Shown: one piece after another, positions 31,485 to 37,934 of the stretch | How positions within the stretch are numbered: the first letter of the stretch is position 1 | How the letters are laid out: every line of letters starts with the position of its first letter | NCBI GenBank assembly: GCA_017549105.1 | Contig: JAFYVN010000011.1 | Span: forward strand, 62,001-126,000 | DNA from: Clostridia bacterium | Lineage (GTDB): Bacteria; Bacillota; Clostridia; Oscillospirales; Acutalibacteraceae | Direction: 5' to 3' | Length of the DNA: 64,000 nucleotides | Notes under the pieces: model-generated | What the model saw: only the letters and a program-made list of their open reading frames with translations | The model's database searches: none | What the model was told of the DNA's origin: nothing | Made by a program: the position numbers and the translations under genes

Positions 31485-31656
31485 ACAAATTTTAATTGCA
31501 ATTCATAACAAAGTCAAATCATGCCGCAAGCAAATTATCCAATAATTATAATACAATTTATTCCGATTTGAGTCAAGGAAGAATAAAATTTTAATTTTTG
31601 TTTTTAATTTTATGAGGCAAAATTCGGTAAACGTTACAAAATATATTAATATACTG

Positions 31657-31685
31657 TTGAAATTATATAAAATATGTGTTAATAT
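31657..31685 (+). promoter_or_regulatory. Promoter of the tandem lipase-like genes
   Basis: TTGAAA (31657-31662), 17 bases, TAATAT (31680-31685). Confidence 0.65.
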
Positions 31686-31731
31686 GAAGTGTAAATTTGA
31701 CTTAAAGTCAAAAAAGGAGAGTGTTTTAAAA

Positions 31732-33591
31732 ATGAAGAACAGAATCAAAAGAGCAATTTCTCTTATTCTGTGCGCTGCAATGCTCGCATCAATCGGTGCA
31801 GTAGGTGCATCTGCAGCAACAAAAACTGACTGCGGCGGAAAATGCGACAGATCGCCTGTTGTTATCCTTCCCGGTATCAACCATTCACCCACATATCTTT
31901 ACGATGAGAACGACGAACCCTATCTCGATGCTGACGGCAACCACGTTGGCGGTACTCTTCTCATCCTTGAACTGAGCAAACTCTGGGGTACTCTTCCCAA
32001 GCTCATCCTCAGCCTTCTTACAACCCTCACAACTCAGATCCCCCTCGGTCTTGAAGATGCTGCATATGATGCCGCAAGCGCTGCATTCTGGGTTCAGAAG
32101 TGCGACAATGACGGTAACTACATCAACAACCTTCAGACAAAGAGATGGAATCACCCCATTTCAGAAATGAACGAAGATGATAAGGATTGGCTCTACACCA
32201 TGATTCCTCTTCAGGCAGTTGAAAAGGAAATCGGCGGCGACCACATCTATATGTTCACCTTCAACCTCGTTGGCGACCCCATGCAGTCGGCTAAAGAGCT
32301 TGATGAATACATCGATATGGTTAAGGAGCAGACAGGCCACGATAAGGTTACTCTTCTCCCCGTTTCGCTCGGCGGCACAATCCTCACCGCTTACCTTGAC
32401 GCATACGGTCACGATAAGGTTGACGAAATCGTTAACGCTGTTGCTTGCCTTGACGGTACAGACATCGTTGCAGATATGCTCGAAAGAAAGTGGAACCTCG
32501 CTGATGAATTCCTCTATCACGAGTTTATTCCCCCCATTCTCGGTGACGACGCTACTCTCGGCTATCTTATCAACTGCATTCTTCACATCATTCCCCGTGC
32601 AGGCGTAGAAGCAATCCTCACCGGTGCAATCAGCGGTGTTCTTGATTCAATGATGATCAACTGCCCCCAGATCTGGGCAATGGTTCCTTCATACAGATAC
32701 GATGCACTTGCTGAGAAATATCTCAACAACGCACCTGAAAAGGCAAAGCTCAAGGAAAAGACAGACCGTTTCCAGACTGCAAGACTCAACCTCAAGGACA
32801 ATATCCTTGACGCAGTTGCAGACGGCGTTAAGGTCAACACCATCGCTGGTGCAAACCTTTCATTCGGCGAGCAGGATTACACCTTCTTCGGCATCGTTGA
32901 ATCCGCTCACGATTATAACACAGACGGTATCATCAATCTTGCTTCAACAACCCTCGGCGCAACAGGCGCACCCGCAGGCAAGACTCTTGCTGATATCAGC
33001 TACGAAAAGAACACATACTGCAAAAACAAGAACCACAATCACGTTTCACCCGACAATAAGGTTGACGTTTCAACATCAATCCTTCCCGAAAACACCTGGA
33101 TTTTCCTTGACCAGCATCACGAAGTAGGCAACAACGACGTTGTTCTTAATCTCATTAAGGCTATCCTTGTAGGCGACGTTTCAAACGTTAACGAAAATCC
33201 CGAAGTATATCCTCAGTTCAACTACAGCTGCAAGACCAAGTACATCCGCCGCTGGAGACTTCCCGATGCAAAGGATCTTCTTGAAAAAGATGCAGCAGGT
33301 GAAATCACCCTTCCCGCAGAAGATAAGGCAGAGCTTGAAGCAGCAATCGCACAGGGCGAAGCTGTTATCAACGCAACAATCGCTGACCAGGAAAAGGTTA
33401 CTGCTGCAGAAGACAGACTCAATGCAATTCTTGCTAAATACGACCTTTATACATACGACGAAGAGCCCTCAAAGTTTGACGTTTTCCTTGATGAATCAAT
33501 GGAAAAAGCAAGCCTCTTCCTTGTTAAGTGGCTCGGCGGCGGCAACCTCATCGACTGGGTTTTCTCACCCATCACAAAACTTTTCAAATAA
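31732..33591 (+). CDS. Secreted alpha/beta-hydrolase (lipase-like), first tandem copy
   Basis: The 619-residue protein starts at ATG 31732 behind AAAAGGAG; a longer frame to 31612 has no site. A signal peptide (MKNRIKRAISLILCAAMLAS) is followed by the unusual motif CGGKCDRSPVVILPGINHSP, with the hydrolase first strand and oxyanion region. The nucleophile motif is PVSLGGT (Ser212), and HxxxxD-type residues occur further on (NHNHVSPD, HHEVGNNDV). Residues about 540-600 are helical and Glu-rich. The end is an aromatic tail (LIDWVFSPITKLFK). It is a lipase/esterase or PGAP1-like hydrolase by fold; the substrate is unknown. The second copy starts 21 bases downstream. Confidence 0.8.
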   Translation: MKNRIKRAISLILCAAMLASIGAVGASAATKTDCGGKCDRSPVVILPGINHSPTYLYDENDEPYLDADGNHVGGTLLILELSKLWGTLPKLILSLLTTLTTQIPLGLEDAAYDAASAAFWVQKCDNDGNYINNLQTKRWNHPISEMNEDDKDWLYTMIPLQAVEKEIGGDHIYMFTFNLVGDPMQSAKELDEYIDMVKEQTGHDKVTLLPVSLGGTILTAYLDAYGHDKVDEIVNAVACLDGTDIVADMLERKWNLADEFLYHEFIPPILGDDATLGYLINCILHIIPRAGVEAILTGAISGVLDSMMINCPQIWAMVPSYRYDALAEKYLNNAPEKAKLKEKTDRFQTARLNLKDNILDAVADGVKVNTIAGANLSFGEQDYTFFGIVESAHDYNTDGIINLASTTLGATGAPAGKTLADISYEKNTYCKNKNHNHVSPDNKVDVSTSILPENTWIFLDQHHEVGNNDVVLNLIKAILVGDVSNVNENPEVYPQFNYSCKTKYIRRWRLPDAKDLLEKDAAGEITLPAEDKAELEAAIAQGEAVINATIADQEKVTAAEDRLNAILAKYDLYTYDEEPSKFDVFLDESMEKASLFLVKWLGGGNLIDWVFSPITKLFK

Positions 33592-33612: not shown

Positions 33613-35445
33613 ATGAAAAAAGTTGTTTCGTTTATTCTCGCTCTTACAATAATTTTCTCCGTTCTTACCGTAGGTGCTTCGGCAGCTGCGGTTAAGACGG
33701 AATGCGGCGGCAAATGCGACACCTGCCCTTCAATCGTTGTTCCCGGTATCGGTCAGTCCAACGTATGGGCGCTCGACGAAAACGGTGACTATATTCTTGA
33801 TGACGAAGGCAACAGAGTCAGCTGCTTCCCCGCAATTTTCGATATCGGCACAATTGTTTTAAAGGCTATTTTCCCCGTACTTCTTACTCTTCTCACCCAG
33901 CGTGATATCGGTCTTTCCTCCGCACTTTCGGATATTATTCTCGACAGCTTCGAGGTTAATATGTGCGACGATAACGGCAAAAACACCGGTAATCTTGAGG
34001 TAGAGAAGTATCCCTATTCTGTTGCAGAATGCAGCGAATATGAAAAAGAGCAGATTTATAATAACGTTCCTCTTCTTGACTACGCAGAGCAGGCAGGCGA
34101 AGACCACCTTTATTACTTTGCATACAACTCATTTTCAAACCATCTTGAAATCGTAAACGAGCTTTATGATTTCATCCAGATGGTCAAGAGAGAAACGGGC
34201 CACAACAAGGTCAACATCGTTCCCATCAGCATGGGCGGTTCGGTTGCAAACGGACTTCTTGAATATTATCCCGAAGTTATGGATGATCTCAACAAGGTTG
34301 TATATATTGTTCCTGCTCTTGACGGTTCAACAATCGTAGGCGACCTTCTTTCAAAAGATCTCACCTTCTTTGACAAGGAATTCCTCTTCAACGGTTTCCT
34401 TGAAACCCTTATGGATGAAGACGAAGCAAGAATGATTGAAGTTATCGCAAGAATCATTCCCGATAACGTTCTTCTCAAAGGTCTTCACGCAGCGGTTAAT
34501 ACTCTTGTTGACGAAGTTGCATCAAAAATCACAAGCATCTGGGCGCTCAGCCCCTCATCCTATTATCCCAAGCTTGCAAAAGAGCTTCTTTCCGACCCCG
34601 CAAGAGCTGAAATAAAGCGCGAAACAGAAATGTACTATCACGCTCAGCTCAACTCCGACAAAAACATTCAGACTCTTGTTGACAAGGGCGTTCAGGTTTT
34701 CAACATTGTTGACTACGATGTACCTCTTTACTGCATCGGCAACACCTGGAATGACGACAACGCAGACGGCGTTATCCACCTTGACTCAACATCAATGGGT
34801 GTTAAGAGCGCAAAGGTCGGCGAAGCACTTCCTGCAGATTATGTTCAGGCAAACACACATTGCTCAAACCCCGAGCATAATCACATTTCTCCCGACAGAG
34901 TTGTTGACGCATCAACTGGTCTTCTTCCCGACACAACATTCTATTTCGACGGTCAGAATCACGAAAAGACTGCAAGAAACGATATAATAATCTCTCTTGC
35001 AACCCGTCTTCTTGCGAAGGATGACATCAAGGATGTTTACTCTTCACCCGAATATCCTCAGTTCAACGGCGCAAGAGACCCCAGAGGTCTTAAGAACAGC
35101 CACATTCCCGCAGCAAAGGCTGTTGACACTTCGGCTCTTTCGCCCGAGGTTGCCGCAGAACTTGAAGCTGCACTTGCAGAAGCAGAAGCTTTTGTAAACG
35201 GAACGGTTTGCTATGCCGGTCAGCAGAAGGAAGTTGAAAACAGACTCCGCGCAGCTCTTGTTGCAGCAGGTGTTTATACGGTTGAAGAAGAGGAAGAACC
35301 CTCTGATTTCTTCAAGAATCTCAGCCTCTGGCTTTATGAGAACTACGGCACGGAAGGTTTCTCTGAAATGCCCGGAATTACAGTGAATCTTATTTTCAAG
35401 CCGTTCTTTGAACTTTTCAACAAACTTCTTACCCCCGCATTTTAA
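33613..35445 (+). CDS. Secreted alpha/beta-hydrolase (lipase-like), second tandem copy
   Basis: This 610-residue paralogue of the preceding gene has the same plan: signal peptide (MKKVVSFILALTIIFSVLTV), the CGGKCDTCPSIVVPGIG motif, nucleophile PISMGGS (Ser206), VVYIVPALDGSTIVGD matching the first copy's AVACLDGTDIVAD, an EHNHISPDRVVDAST motif and a C-terminal helical Glu-rich part ending in an aromatic tail (LIFKPFFELFNKLLTPAF). The two are clearly a tandem duplication that has diverged. Translation starts behind GGGGTTGA. A strong hairpin follows. The conserved CxxxC pairs just after the signal peptide could form a disulfide. Confidence 0.8.
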   Translation: MKKVVSFILALTIIFSVLTVGASAAAVKTECGGKCDTCPSIVVPGIGQSNVWALDENGDYILDDEGNRVSCFPAIFDIGTIVLKAIFPVLLTLLTQRDIGLSSALSDIILDSFEVNMCDDNGKNTGNLEVEKYPYSVAECSEYEKEQIYNNVPLLDYAEQAGEDHLYYFAYNSFSNHLEIVNELYDFIQMVKRETGHNKVNIVPISMGGSVANGLLEYYPEVMDDLNKVVYIVPALDGSTIVGDLLSKDLTFFDKEFLFNGFLETLMDEDEARMIEVIARIIPDNVLLKGLHAAVNTLVDEVASKITSIWALSPSSYYPKLAKELLSDPARAEIKRETEMYYHAQLNSDKNIQTLVDKGVQVFNIVDYDVPLYCIGNTWNDDNADGVIHLDSTSMGVKSAKVGEALPADYVQANTHCSNPEHNHISPDRVVDASTGLLPDTTFYFDGQNHEKTARNDIIISLATRLLAKDDIKDVYSSPEYPQFNGARDPRGLKNSHIPAAKAVDTSALSPEVAAELEAALAEAEAFVNGTVCYAGQQKEVENRLRAALVAAGVYTVEEEEEPSDFFKNLSLWLYENYGTEGFSEMPGITVNLIFKPFFELFNKLLTPAF

Positions 35446-35455
35446 TAAAACAATT

Positions 35456-35486
35456 AACGACCCTTGCCAGACGGCAAGGGTCGTTT
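35456..35486. terminator. Hairpin terminator between convergent units
   Basis: AACGACCCTTGCC / GGCAAGGGTCGTT with an AGAC loop. The T-run is weak on the plus strand (TTTACGTT) and on the minus strand reads AATTGTTTT. It separates the lipase genes from the micropeptide genes. Confidence 0.7.
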
Positions 35487-35503: not shown

Positions 35504-35590
35504 TTATGCAATTGCGGGTGCATCCTCTTTTAAAAGAAGGATTCCGGTTACAACCGAAACTGCGATTATGATAATTCCGAATACTGTCAT
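35504..35590 (-). CDS. Single-helix membrane micropeptide, type alpha, copy 2
   Basis: A 28-residue peptide with a strong site (GGAGGGAATAAAAA) before its ATG. It is almost all hydrophobic (TVFGIIIIAVSVVTGILLL), then ends with a charged, Pro-containing tail KEDAPAIA. It is closely similar to the peptide at 35744-35830: both share M-x-VF, TG-x-LL and K-[DE]-D-x-P-x-x-A. It is last of four tiny genes on the minus strand. Too short for usual gene callers. Function unknown; a small membrane protein, toxin-like peptide or leaderless bacteriocin are all possible. Confidence 0.7.
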   Translation of the reverse strand: MTVFGIIIIAVSVVTGILLLKEDAPAIA

Positions 35591-35614
35591 TTTTTATTCC
35601 CTCCGTCATTCTGC

Positions 35615-35704
35615 TCATTCAATGGGCTTTGCCCTGCAGATTGCCGCCACCGATATAGCGGTTGTTGTTGCGAAAAATGCGCCTGTAATAATTAATGCTG
35701 TCAT
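35615..35704 (-). CDS. Single-helix membrane micropeptide, type beta, copy 2
   Basis: A 29-residue peptide behind GGAGGGACACAAT. It has a hydrophobic helix rich in Ala/Thr/Ile and then SVAAICRAKPIE, with one Cys near the end. The peptide at 35938-36021 has a similar length and the same SVA-x-x-C-x-AK ending. It lies 24 bases upstream of the type-alpha gene at 35504-35590, which suggests co-translation of an alpha/beta pair. Confidence 0.65.
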   Translation of the reverse strand: MTALIITGAFFATTTAISVAAICRAKPIE

Positions 35705-35743
35705 ATTGTGTCCCTCCGTTTTAACTGATAACCTTCCGTGTTA

Positions 35744-35830
35744 TCATGCATAAACAGGTGAATCGTCTTTTATAAGAAGAACTCCTGTTGTTAATGCAAG
35801 TGTGATTACGATTGTTGTGAATACTGCCAT
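35744..35830 (-). CDS. Single-helix membrane micropeptide, type alpha, copy 1
   Basis: A 28-residue peptide behind GGAGGGGACAAAA. Its hydrophobic segment (AVFTTIVITLALTTGVLLI) is followed by KDDSPVYA. About 13 of 28 positions are identical to the alpha peptide at 35504-35590, and most others are conservative. No signal-peptidase site is evident, so the whole peptide is probably the mature form with its charged end on one face of the membrane. Confidence 0.7.
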   Translation of the reverse strand: MAVFTTIVITLALTTGVLLIKDDSPVYA

Positions 35831-35937
35831 TTTTGTCCCCTCCGTTGTTTTTTGTTATGGCTTCATTATATCACGCTGTTTTCTAAGAAAAAAGCAGGCA
35901 AACCTCTAAAAAATTATTAAGAAAAACGAATCAATTC

Positions 35938-36021
35938 TTAAAAAAGCTTTGCCGCGCACGCTGTTGCAACGGAAAATCCCGCCGCTGCAAGAAGTGAGTA
36001 AACGATAATGATTGCCTCCAT
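35938..36021 (-). CDS. Single-helix membrane micropeptide, type beta, copy 1
   Basis: A 27-residue peptide behind GGGGCGGAC. It has a hydrophobic, Ala-rich helix (IIIVYSLLAAAGFSVATA) ending CAAKLF. It shares the SVA-x-x-C-x-AK pattern with the peptide at 35615-35704. It is the first of the four on the minus strand, 107 bases before the next. Upstream is AT-rich DNA with the palindrome ACATTTCGAAATGT (36059-36072) but no clean promoter. Confidence 0.6.
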   Translation of the reverse strand: MEAIIIVYSLLAAAGFSVATACAAKLF

Positions 36022-36072: not shown

Positions 36073-36189
36073 TTTTTGTCCCTTTGTTATATTAGTGTCC
36101 CGTGTTGCGTAAATTGTTGCAACAAAAATAAAAATTTTTTGATTTTTTTCAAAATTTTATTTAAAACACAAAAATAGGGCTGTTTTTTA

Positions 36190-36218
36190 TTGTTATTCAC
36201 GGCTTGGTATGTTACAAT
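36190..36218 (+). promoter_or_regulatory. Promoter of the MalY-like/GH42 unit
   Basis: TTGTTA (36190-36195), 17 bases, TACAAT (36213-36218), with an extended -10 TG. The AT-rich DNA upstream may act as an UP-like region. Confidence 0.65.
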
Positions 36219-36251
36219 AATTCAGTAAATTTTTTAAAACAGGTGAAAACA

Positions 36252-37934
36252 ATGAAGCACGATTTTACAAGCATTCCCGACCGCAGCCGTTTCGGCTCGT
36301 CAAAATGGGAAATTGCAAAAAACGCATCAATGGAATTTGTTCCCCTCTCGGTTGCGGATATGGAATTCCCTACCGCAAGACCGATAGTTGACTCAATAAA
36401 AAAGCTTGCCGAAGAAGCAATTCTCGGTTATACAAACCCCACGCAGGAATATTACGACGCTGTTGTTTCGTGGATGAAGCGCAGACACAGTTTTGACATC
36501 AAAAAAGAATGGCTTCTGCAAACTCCCGGAATCATCAATGCTCTTGCAATGCTTATTGAATCCGTAACAAAACCCGGTGACGGTGTTATTGTTATGCCTC
36601 CCGTCTATTATCCGTTTGATATGACGATTATAGCAACGGGCAGGCGCAGCGTTTTCTGTCCGCTGATTGAGAATAACGGCAGATATGAAATCAACTATGC
36701 TCTTCTTGAAGAATTGGCAAAGGATGAAAACAACACCGCCCTCATCTTCTGCAATCCCCATAATCCCGTGGGCAGAGTGTGGTCAGCGGATGAACTGAAA
36801 AAGACGGCTGAAATATGCTGTAATAATAATGTATTTATAATAGACGACGAAATCCACAACGACCTGATTATGCCCGGCTATGAGCATACCGTTATGGCAA
36901 ACGTCAGCGAAGAAGCAAAGAATAATATTGCGGTCTGCACCGCACCGAGCAAAACATTCAATCTTGCAGGCGTTCAGTGTTCCAATATAATCATCCCGAA
37001 TGATGAAATCAGAGCAAAGGCAACAATCCGCAACAAGATGAATATGCAGATGCATCTGAATGTTTTTGCTTACACAATCTGCACTGCCGCTTATAACGAA
37101 TGTGAAGACTGGCTCGATGAACTGCTCAGCGTTATTGCCGGAAACGCAAAATGTGTTGAGGATTTTATGGCAGAAAACTTCCCCGAAATCAAGGTTTATC
37201 CGCTTGAGGGTACTTATCTGCAGTGGCTCGATGTTCGTGCTCTCGGTATGACCCATCTTGAAGTGCGTGAAATGCTCGAGGATGCGAACATATATCTCGA
37301 CAACGGTGAGATGTTCGGTGCGCTCGGCAGAGGATATCAGAGAATAAACCTTGCCTGCGCAAAATCAACTCTCGAAAAAGCGCTTGAACGCTTTAAATCT
37401 GCGGTTGAAAATGCAAGAGCAAAGGATAAGGAATATCACAAAACCCTTGAAATCGGAGATACCCTTGAAGAAATTAATGCGGACAAAACAACCCTCGTTG
37501 TTTTCGGCAGAAAAAGCGAATGCAAGCTGACCGAAGATTTGCTTGACACACTTAAAGAAAAATATGCGGAGTTTGAATCGGCAAATCTCGATATCAAATT
37601 TATCGTTCCGTCAGCAAAGTCCGATAAGGATTATCCCTTTGAAATAATCTCCGACACCGAAGCTGTATTATATAAAAAGTATAATGTTTTTGAGGCAGAC
37701 AGCGCAGTCTATGCCGTTGCGGGCGACAAAATGTTTGAGGAAAAAGTCGGTGGGGATTCCGTTAAAATTATGGAATCAAAGGTCTTTGCACCCACAGACG
37801 AAAACGAATTCCGTCCCCTCCAGCTTTTTGCGTTTATCGGAATTGATGAAAACAAAAAGGTTGTTTATTCATACTATTCAAAGACAATCGGTGATTTTCC
37901 CAACATAAATGAAATCATTGAGAGGTTAAAATAA
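36252..37934 (+). CDS. MalY/PatB-type PLP C-S lyase or aminotransferase fused to a peroxiredoxin-like domain
   Basis: The 560-residue protein starts at ATG 36252 behind CAGGTGAAAAC. Residues 1-395 match the MalY/PatB branch of fold-type-I PLP enzymes: DFTSIPDRSRFGSSKWE, VADMEFPTARPI, CNPHNPVGRVW and the PLP Lys234 in APSKTFNLAGVQCSN. Such enzymes cleave cystathionine or cysteine C-S bonds. MalY/PatB proteins are about 390 residues, so the last 165 are extra. That part has VVFGRKSECKLTEDLL (Cys424), FPFEIISDTEAVLYKKYNV-like strands and LFAFIGIDENKKVVYSYYS, resembling an AhpC/TSA peroxiredoxin. The fusion links a sulfur-amino-acid enzyme to a thiol-redox fold. A GH42 gene overlaps its stop by one base. 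Confidence 0.8.
   Translation: MKHDFTSIPDRSRFGSSKWEIAKNASMEFVPLSVADMEFPTARPIVDSIKKLAEEAILGYTNPTQEYYDAVVSWMKRRHSFDIKKEWLLQTPGIINALAMLIESVTKPGDGVIVMPPVYYPFDMTIIATGRRSVFCPLIENNGRYEINYALLEELAKDENNTALIFCNPHNPVGRVWSADELKKTAEICCNNNVFIIDDEIHNDLIMPGYEHTVMANVSEEAKNNIAVCTAPSKTFNLAGVQCSNIIIPNDEIRAKATIRNKMNMQMHLNVFAYTICTAAYNECEDWLDELLSVIAGNAKCVEDFMAENFPEIKVYPLEGTYLQWLDVRALGMTHLEVREMLEDANIYLDNGEMFGALGRGYQRINLACAKSTLEKALERFKSAVENARAKDKEYHKTLEIGDTLEEINADKTTLVVFGRKSECKLTEDLLDTLKEKYAEFESANLDIKFIVPSAKSDKDYPFEIISDTEAVLYKKYNVFEADSAVYAVAGDKMFEEKVGGDSVKIMESKVFAPTDENEFRPLQLFAFIGIDENKKVVYSYYSKTIGDFPNINEIIERLK

Follow-up and report, generated by a model that had tools for sequence, protein, structure and literature searches.

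The window, a stretch of 64,000 nucleotides from the genome of a Clostridia bacterium with relatives in the ruminant gut, carries a minus-strand array of four tandem micropeptide genes of two families, termed alpha and beta. The array and its flanks comprise the following features:

36080..36120, minus strand: beta1 promoter region, TGCAACAATTT ... ACACTAATATAAC, with a -10-like TATAAC at 36091-36086
35938..36021, minus strand: beta1, 27 aa, MEAIIIVYSLLAAAGFSVATACAAKLF
35856..35923, minus strand: promoter of alpha1-beta2-alpha2, predicted to be of two-component type from alignments and models R1 and R2; TTA boxes at 35920-35917, 35909-35907 and 35886-35884, -10 element TATAAT at 35870-35865
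35744..35830, minus strand: alpha1, 28 aa, MAVFTTIVITLALTTGVLLIKDDSPVYA, member of a family of 11 ORFs
35615..35704, minus strand: beta2, 29 aa, MTALIITGAFFATTTAISVAAICRAKPIE
35504..35590, minus strand: alpha2, 28 aa, MTVFGIIIIAVSVVTGILLLKEDAPAIA
35456..35485, minus strand: intrinsic terminator at the array end, 13-pair stem (consensus scan)
31612-33591, plus strand: hydrolase-like gene, first of a paralogous pair, sub-cut-off Abhydrolase_1 match
33613-35445, plus strand: hydrolase-like gene, second of the pair, no Abhydrolase_1 match
36204-37934, plus strand: aminotransferase gene on the other flank of the array

The four frames had been reported in a first-pass annotation, and their coordinates, lengths and motifs are all present as described, as are a GGAGGG-type Shine-Dalgarno sequence in three of them (GGAGGGG for alpha1, GGAGGG for beta2 and alpha2, the weaker GGGGCGG for beta1) and one hydrophobic stretch in each. 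Between the array promoter and the terminator no other gene was seen, neither for a transporter nor for an enzyme, and the promoter-model scan found no separate promoter for alpha2. The peptides are short with a single hydrophobic span (maximum Kyte-Doolittle mean over 19 residues 1.93-2.75, GRAVY 1.20-1.84), from which a membrane location is predicted. Across both families GRAVY ranges from 1.2 to 2.1, with charges of -1 to -3 for alpha and 0 to +2 for beta. Pfam and NCBIfam scans of the four peptides and of gamma, a further micropeptide described below, returned nothing over cut-off and five sub-cut-off matches (E 0.035-0.23), in line with the earlier statement that no known family was recognized. 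The alpha profile had no match in the PDB, and a literature search with few terms returned no title or abstract start naming the alpha, beta or gamma families. Common gene callers report genes from about 30 codons upwards; the array genes, at 27-29 codons, fall below this length. At its C-terminus the flanking aminotransferase is extended, and the extension weakly matches AhpC/TSA (thioredoxin-like), below cut-off.

Judged by their pattern of substitution, the four ORFs are genes, as orthologs differ mostly at silent sites. Pairwise differences among the 11 alpha ORFs amounted to 363/181/552 by codon position (pN 0.194, pS 0.412, pN/pS 0.47), and one orthologous pair had a pN/pS of 0.09. Beta2 and its ortholog in genome G062 gave pN 0.033 and pS 0.438. 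For beta1 and the ortholog G062_1393, pN was 0.194 and pS 0.656, a relation that rests on the protein frames; the automatic alignment of the window with G062 placed the G062 beta1 on the window's alpha1. An excess of third-position differences was found with p < 0.05 in six of nine pairs tested, among them beta2 of the window and G062 (2/1/9, p 0.004), the alphas of G011 and G002 (3/0/10, p 0.002) and the two alphas of G008 (0/3/12, p 0.0003). It was not significant for alpha1 and its G062 counterpart (6/0/8, p 0.06), for the G017 and G027 alphas (2/2/4, p 0.26) and for alpha1 and alpha2 of the window (12/5/8, p 0.63), so that the latter pair shows no protein-level constraint. The selection at protein level that had been proposed for the array thus holds between species, for most orthologous pairs tested, but not between the two alphas of the window.

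The alpha profile matched 12 of the 45 genomes of the genus at E ≤ 0.1. Eight of these (G000, G002, G008, G011, G014, G017, G027 and G062; each E ≤ 2e-13) were accepted, and the other four, with five places (L040-L043 and L046) that have E values of 0.028-0.097 and frames of 30-295 aa, were read and set aside. The beta profile matched seven of the 45 at E ≤ 0.1, three of them strongly and accepted (G000, G008, G062) and four weakly (E 0.01-0.09) and set aside. By these counts, the two types told apart in the first-pass annotation have counterparts in relatives beyond chance. An obligate partnership of alpha and beta is not needed: all three beta genomes contain alpha, but five of the eight alpha genomes are without a strong beta match. 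In a family-wide draw of 398 genomes, few of them from the genus, alpha was found at E ≤ 1e-4 solely in the window's own genome and in none of 134 other genera. Alpha1 was without a match in phage and plasmid records. A pattern search matched 50 stretches. Four of them were confirmed, each in a named Clostridia MAG; three of these MAGs originate from goat colon and the fourth from roe deer rectum.

The alternating order had been read as duplication of a beta-alpha pair as a unit. The arrangement in relatives does not support this. At G062:C79 the orthologs of beta1 and beta2 are adjacent, 23 nt from stop to start. Their upstream region is of the kind found in the window, they are convergent with the hydrolase-like pair that also flanks the window array, and alpha is absent. 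At G008:C12 a beta2-like gene stands behind a beta-type promoter, again without alpha. Alignment of the upstream regions indicates that the beta-type promoter is kept in the window, at G062:C79 and at G008:C12 and that it is unlike the alpha promoter type. In the window, alpha1 has a promoter of its own and stands between the two betas; beta1 is not under an alpha-type promoter. Moreover, alpha has a separate and conserved home locus in four genomes: a further alpha of the window's own genome, at C11:318167-318250, lies behind the same gene series as in G002, G011 and G062, namely aminotransferase, ThiI, CinA, two sortase-like genes and a SpoIID-like gene (domains scanned in G002). These neighbors are absent at the window, G017 and G027 loci and from the 4 kb seen of G014. 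An ABC transporter gene (domains scanned in G002) lies next to alpha in divergent orientation in G002, G008, G011 and G062. These loci, and the unconstrained divergence of alpha1 from alpha2, led us to reject a joint duplication of beta and alpha. In the simplest history, an alpha unit entered the beta operon together with its promoter; the reverse, a loss of alpha in G062, is possible. Two observations on beta-like sequences may be added. At G008:C12 (L066 / L048) a frame of 26 aa, MKKNLIITSASILALLFALTGLLILV, comes after the beta2-like gene and has a good Shine-Dalgarno sequence. A stretch like GTATAAAACGGGGGGGACAAAAGATGGTAGT, which resembles the beta1 start region, occurs near position 1500 of L033, L034 and L024 (G011, own genome and G023), where in each of the three genomes it apparently faces the 3' end of a coding gene in antisense orientation.

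The most informative feature of the array is its promoter, which the first-pass annotation had missed. Nine alpha-unit promoters from eight genomes align without gaps over 68 bp with a mean column identity of 85%. TTAA, TTA and TTA are invariant at columns 4, 15 and 38, boxes 1 and 2 being spaced by 11 bp, and the -10 element (TATA-T invariant) lies at column 54. The promoter is kept among alpha units although the home-locus neighbors are not shared by the loci of the window, G017 and G027 or by the 4 kb seen of G014. Model R1 was trained on 13 sequences, i.e. the nine alpha promoters, one gamma promoter and three other promoters, and model R2 on the nine alpha promoters alone. The sole match of either model in the window is the alpha1-beta2-alpha2 promoter, a training row of both. 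R1 matched 72 places at E ≤ 0.05 in 33 of the 45 genomes, many of them weakly. At E ≤ 3e-11 it matched 16 places, nine in front of alpha, four in front of gamma and three in front of other genes; 13 of these are training rows and three, all gamma, are outside the training. We read 38 of the 72 places, training loci included, and took wider regions for 26. Further R1 places precede gamma variants (G017, G027), response-regulator genes (G004, G007, G027), proteins with an export-like N-terminus, proteins of 87-94 aa and hydrophobic proteins of 47-62 aa, and some have no clear gene behind them. Since the alpha-type promoter also precedes secreted and 87-94 aa proteins, it says little about the action of the peptides. 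R2 found gamma promoters in six genomes with E values of 8e-14 to 1.4e-7, none of them part of its training. In the window's own genome, R2 matched nine places at E ≤ 1: the first three are two alpha promoters of the training set and a secreted-protein gene, the fourth is gamma, and the sixth, C11:33305-33363 (E 0.07), lies 41 nt upstream of the regulator gene of the two-component system TCS-A.

Several side observations concern alpha loci and places with alpha-type promoters. The 87-94 aa protein family (L108, L115, L117, L121, L123) and the hydrophobic 47-62 aa proteins (L114, L122, L124) stand behind matches of varying strength, and the region downstream of the two G008 alphas contains a 44-aa hydrophobic frame similar to the latter (L027 2299-2433). 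A single frame on G000:C12 (L069 11298-13157) fuses sigma-70 regions 2 and 4 with a BspA-type leucine-rich repeat region, and an alpha-type promoter is found about 1.5 kb from it on the opposite strand (L069 9676-9742). In seven of nine alpha units the terminator is directly preceded by TTTCA-N(1-17)-GGGAC (e.g. L017 1751-1771, L016 1373-1390), with a near variant in G008 and none in the window array. A stricter form with GGGGACARRAG was found at 23 of 183 loci, every one an alpha locus; the element resembles a Shine-Dalgarno site without a gene. On G008:C24 (L067 10506-9988, minus strand), four micropeptide frames, MVISAVIISAAAMAAIAAACMKQ, MSIRKFIEKSIDALAFLFTASLTAIAVVATIILVGCTL, MALILAASVTVITATSAVAMICYAI and MTFLIVIFAATTAFSVTSICMAKPF, lie upstream of a LytTR regulator gene and two FHA-domain genes; all four frames contain a hydrophobic span and, close to the end, a Cys. 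Phosphate starvation, suggested by the PhoP-like appearance of the boxes, was tried as the signal and rejected: partial PstS matches (E ≤ 1e-20) occurred in two of 45 genomes, none over the curated cut-off, and both loci were without an R1 match.

Gamma (28-34 aa) was found in 10 of the 45 genomes, with six strong matches and four weak ones that were read and accepted; an eleventh match, inside a 395-aa frame, was dropped. By raw count, ignoring relatedness, it is present in seven of the eight alpha genomes, G008 being the exception. The family-wide draw contained gamma in the window's own genome and in G063, and one match outside the genus, in a 547-aa frame, was rejected. Four of the ten gamma genes have an upstream region with TGTAA repeats and no R2 match. 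Comparison of the alpha and gamma profiles gave a probability of 32% over 19 columns, which the hydrophobic spans alone might explain. In G011, gamma follows the TCS-A kinase gene, the only one of 30 loci read in which it adjoins TCS-A, and in G002 and G062 the response-regulator and kinase genes of a third two-component pair come after gamma.

The kinase of TCS-A has about 900 aa, that of a second system, TCS-B, about 660 aa. Some match to TCS-A at E ≤ 1e-40 was present in 42 of 45 genomes, the weaker ones including paralogs like TCS-B. The 30 best loci, one per genome, were taken, so that at least 30 of the 45 genomes contain TCS-A; as alpha occurs in eight, TCS-A does not need alpha. Over these 30 loci R2 had 16 matches at E ≤ 1, of which one is the G011 gamma and five lie elsewhere. 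Where the start of the regulator gene was in view, 10 of 25 loci, own genome included, had a correctly oriented R2 site 15-61 nt upstream of it, mostly weak (E 3e-6 to 0.64 in 159 kb), and 15 of 25 had no R2 site there. R1 sites occurred near TCS-B in four of 12 loci, just downstream of the kinase gene in G001 and G015, further downstream in G005 and divergent and weak in G066 (E 0.11); the own-genome TCS-B locus has no R1 site near it. The third pair, preceded by gamma in G002 and G062, likewise has R1 sites nearby. The TCS-A regulator of G011 is of the OmpR type (Response_reg and Trans_reg_C), and tandem boxes in 11-bp phase are typical for such regulators. The assignment of the alpha-type promoter to an OmpR-type regulator is fairly well supported by these sequence features, and among several candidates for the cognate system TCS-A is our preferred choice.

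Overall, the array probably belongs to a two-component regulon with many small membrane peptides among its members. For the fuller reading, in which the promoter is activated by an OmpR-family regulator and the peptides act as small membrane regulators of an envelope-response circuit, we see about an even chance. The pattern of the alpha1-beta2-alpha2 promoter is also found at gamma and at a sensor-regulator pair, and the promoter is therefore likely switched on by such a sensor. An OmpR-family response regulator would bind and activate this conserved promoter, and alpha1, beta2 and alpha2 would be co-transcribed as far as the terminator. Having presumably moved in with its promoter, alpha1 would thereby have brought beta2 and alpha2 under the control of the latter. 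The signal could be envelope stress, and the peptides would sit in the membrane and modulate the sensor kinase or another membrane protein.

Other explanations have to be weighed against this regulatory reading. We consider it unlikely that the peptides are accessory subunits, each a small structural or stabilizing part of a co-induced membrane enzyme or transporter. KdpF and CydX, each about 30 aa long and with one span, are encoded in one operon with their enzyme; the array peptides match them in size and single span, and the ABC transporter gene divergent from alpha in four genomes would suit such a role. However, the array unit contains no enzyme or transporter gene, the home locus of the own genome has another gene in place of the ABC transporter, the transporter is likewise missing at the window, G017 and G027 loci and from the 4 kb seen of G014, and the family scans returned nothing over cut-off. 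Type I toxins, i.e. hydrophobic membrane-depolarizing peptides checked by antisense RNA or mRNA folding, seem improbable. Antisense promoter-like sites numbered four in nine alpha units versus 3.1 in shuffled sequences and had no shared place (consensus scan), a 1-kb region of the window contained nothing at Rfam gathering score, and alpha1 is unmatched in phage and plasmid records. Size, hydrophobicity and tandem copies would agree with toxins, and the CCTTTC of the 3' element conserved in seven of nine alpha units could pair with the Shine-Dalgarno sequence, but in folded alpha mRNAs the mean pairing of the latter varied from 0.33 to 0.88, which is not consistent sequestration and led us to reject fold-back translational control by this motif.

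Pheromone-like signaling peptides cut from membrane precursors appear very unlikely. Alpha-type promoters do lie close to two-component genes, and the four-peptide run of G008:C24, with one beta-like member, is upstream of a LytTR regulator gene, but this LytTR link was found once, the short C-terminal tails are conserved along with the span, and the three scanned neighbors in the window include no processing protease, exporter or AgrB-like gene. The prospect is slimmer still for a multi-peptide leaderless bacteriocin like aureocin A70, for which four tandem peptides of 30-31 aa are known. The array resembles aureocin A70 and garvicin KS in its tandem leaderless peptides, three or four in number and of about the right length, and an ABC transporter gene adjoins alpha in four genomes, though not in the window. 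These bacteriocins are, however, cationic and less hydrophobic: PMC6131525 gives charges of +4 to +5 and GRAVY values of 0.53-0.71 for aureocin A70, against acidic to weakly basic peptides with values of 1.2-2.1 in the array, which moreover belongs to a predicted regulon. The three scanned window neighbors are the hydrolase-like pair and the aminotransferase, with no immunity or export gene among them. Both the bacteriocin and the toxin reading had been named in the first-pass annotation, and neither gained support. Finally, the conserved promoter and 3' element and the short predicted transcripts of single-alpha units (186-270 nt) could point to a regulatory RNA with the frames as by-products. 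Most orthologous pairs show third-position excess and low pN/pS, and Shine-Dalgarno sequence and start are kept, which makes this explanation scarcely credible. What stands of the earlier interpretation are real membrane-type genes, two families and selection between species; the duplication of a pair does not.

If the regulatory reading is correct, the mode of action may, by analogy, be like that of MgrB and PmrR. MgrB is a PhoP-induced protein of 47 aa that inhibits PhoQ (PMC2789325), PmrR is a PmrA-induced membrane peptide that inhibits LpxT (PMC8129183), and PmrB was activated via its transmembrane domain by peptides selected from random sequence (PMC7790251). Like MgrB, the array peptides are small, of predicted membrane type and in a predicted two-component regulon, feedback being proposed by analogy. 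They differ from it in their size of 27-29 versus 47 aa, in their tandem array of unlike families and in their occurrence in Clostridia, and none of the sub-cut-off Pfam and NCBIfam matches obtained with the window peptides and gamma was named MgrB. PmrR has a length of about 30 aa. With it the array shares a membrane micropeptide behind a response-regulator box (predicted here), and gamma in G002, G011 and G062 shares its position next to two-component genes; no enzyme of a lipid A pathway is implicated here.

None of the micropeptide families turned up in the libraries searched, and the functional class to which they would belong is already known; we regard them as new families of a known kind. 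As the alpha-only model finds gamma and similar sites at sensor-kinase operons, the regulator boxes can guide to genes missed by annotation. It is conceivable, if rather doubtful, that alpha, beta and gamma form one two-component circuit that, in a genus of gut Clostridia, works largely via micropeptides: a kinase would induce several unlike membrane peptides of 25-35 residues, which would use their spans to tune kinases or envelope enzymes, and members would be recruited when a peptide gene and its boxes move into another peptide operon, as in the window. If the regulatory role is true, MgrB/PmrR-like control, known in enteric bacteria, would extend to gut Clostridia and to other peptide families, and the array would be an example of the recruitment of such a peptide into another operon.
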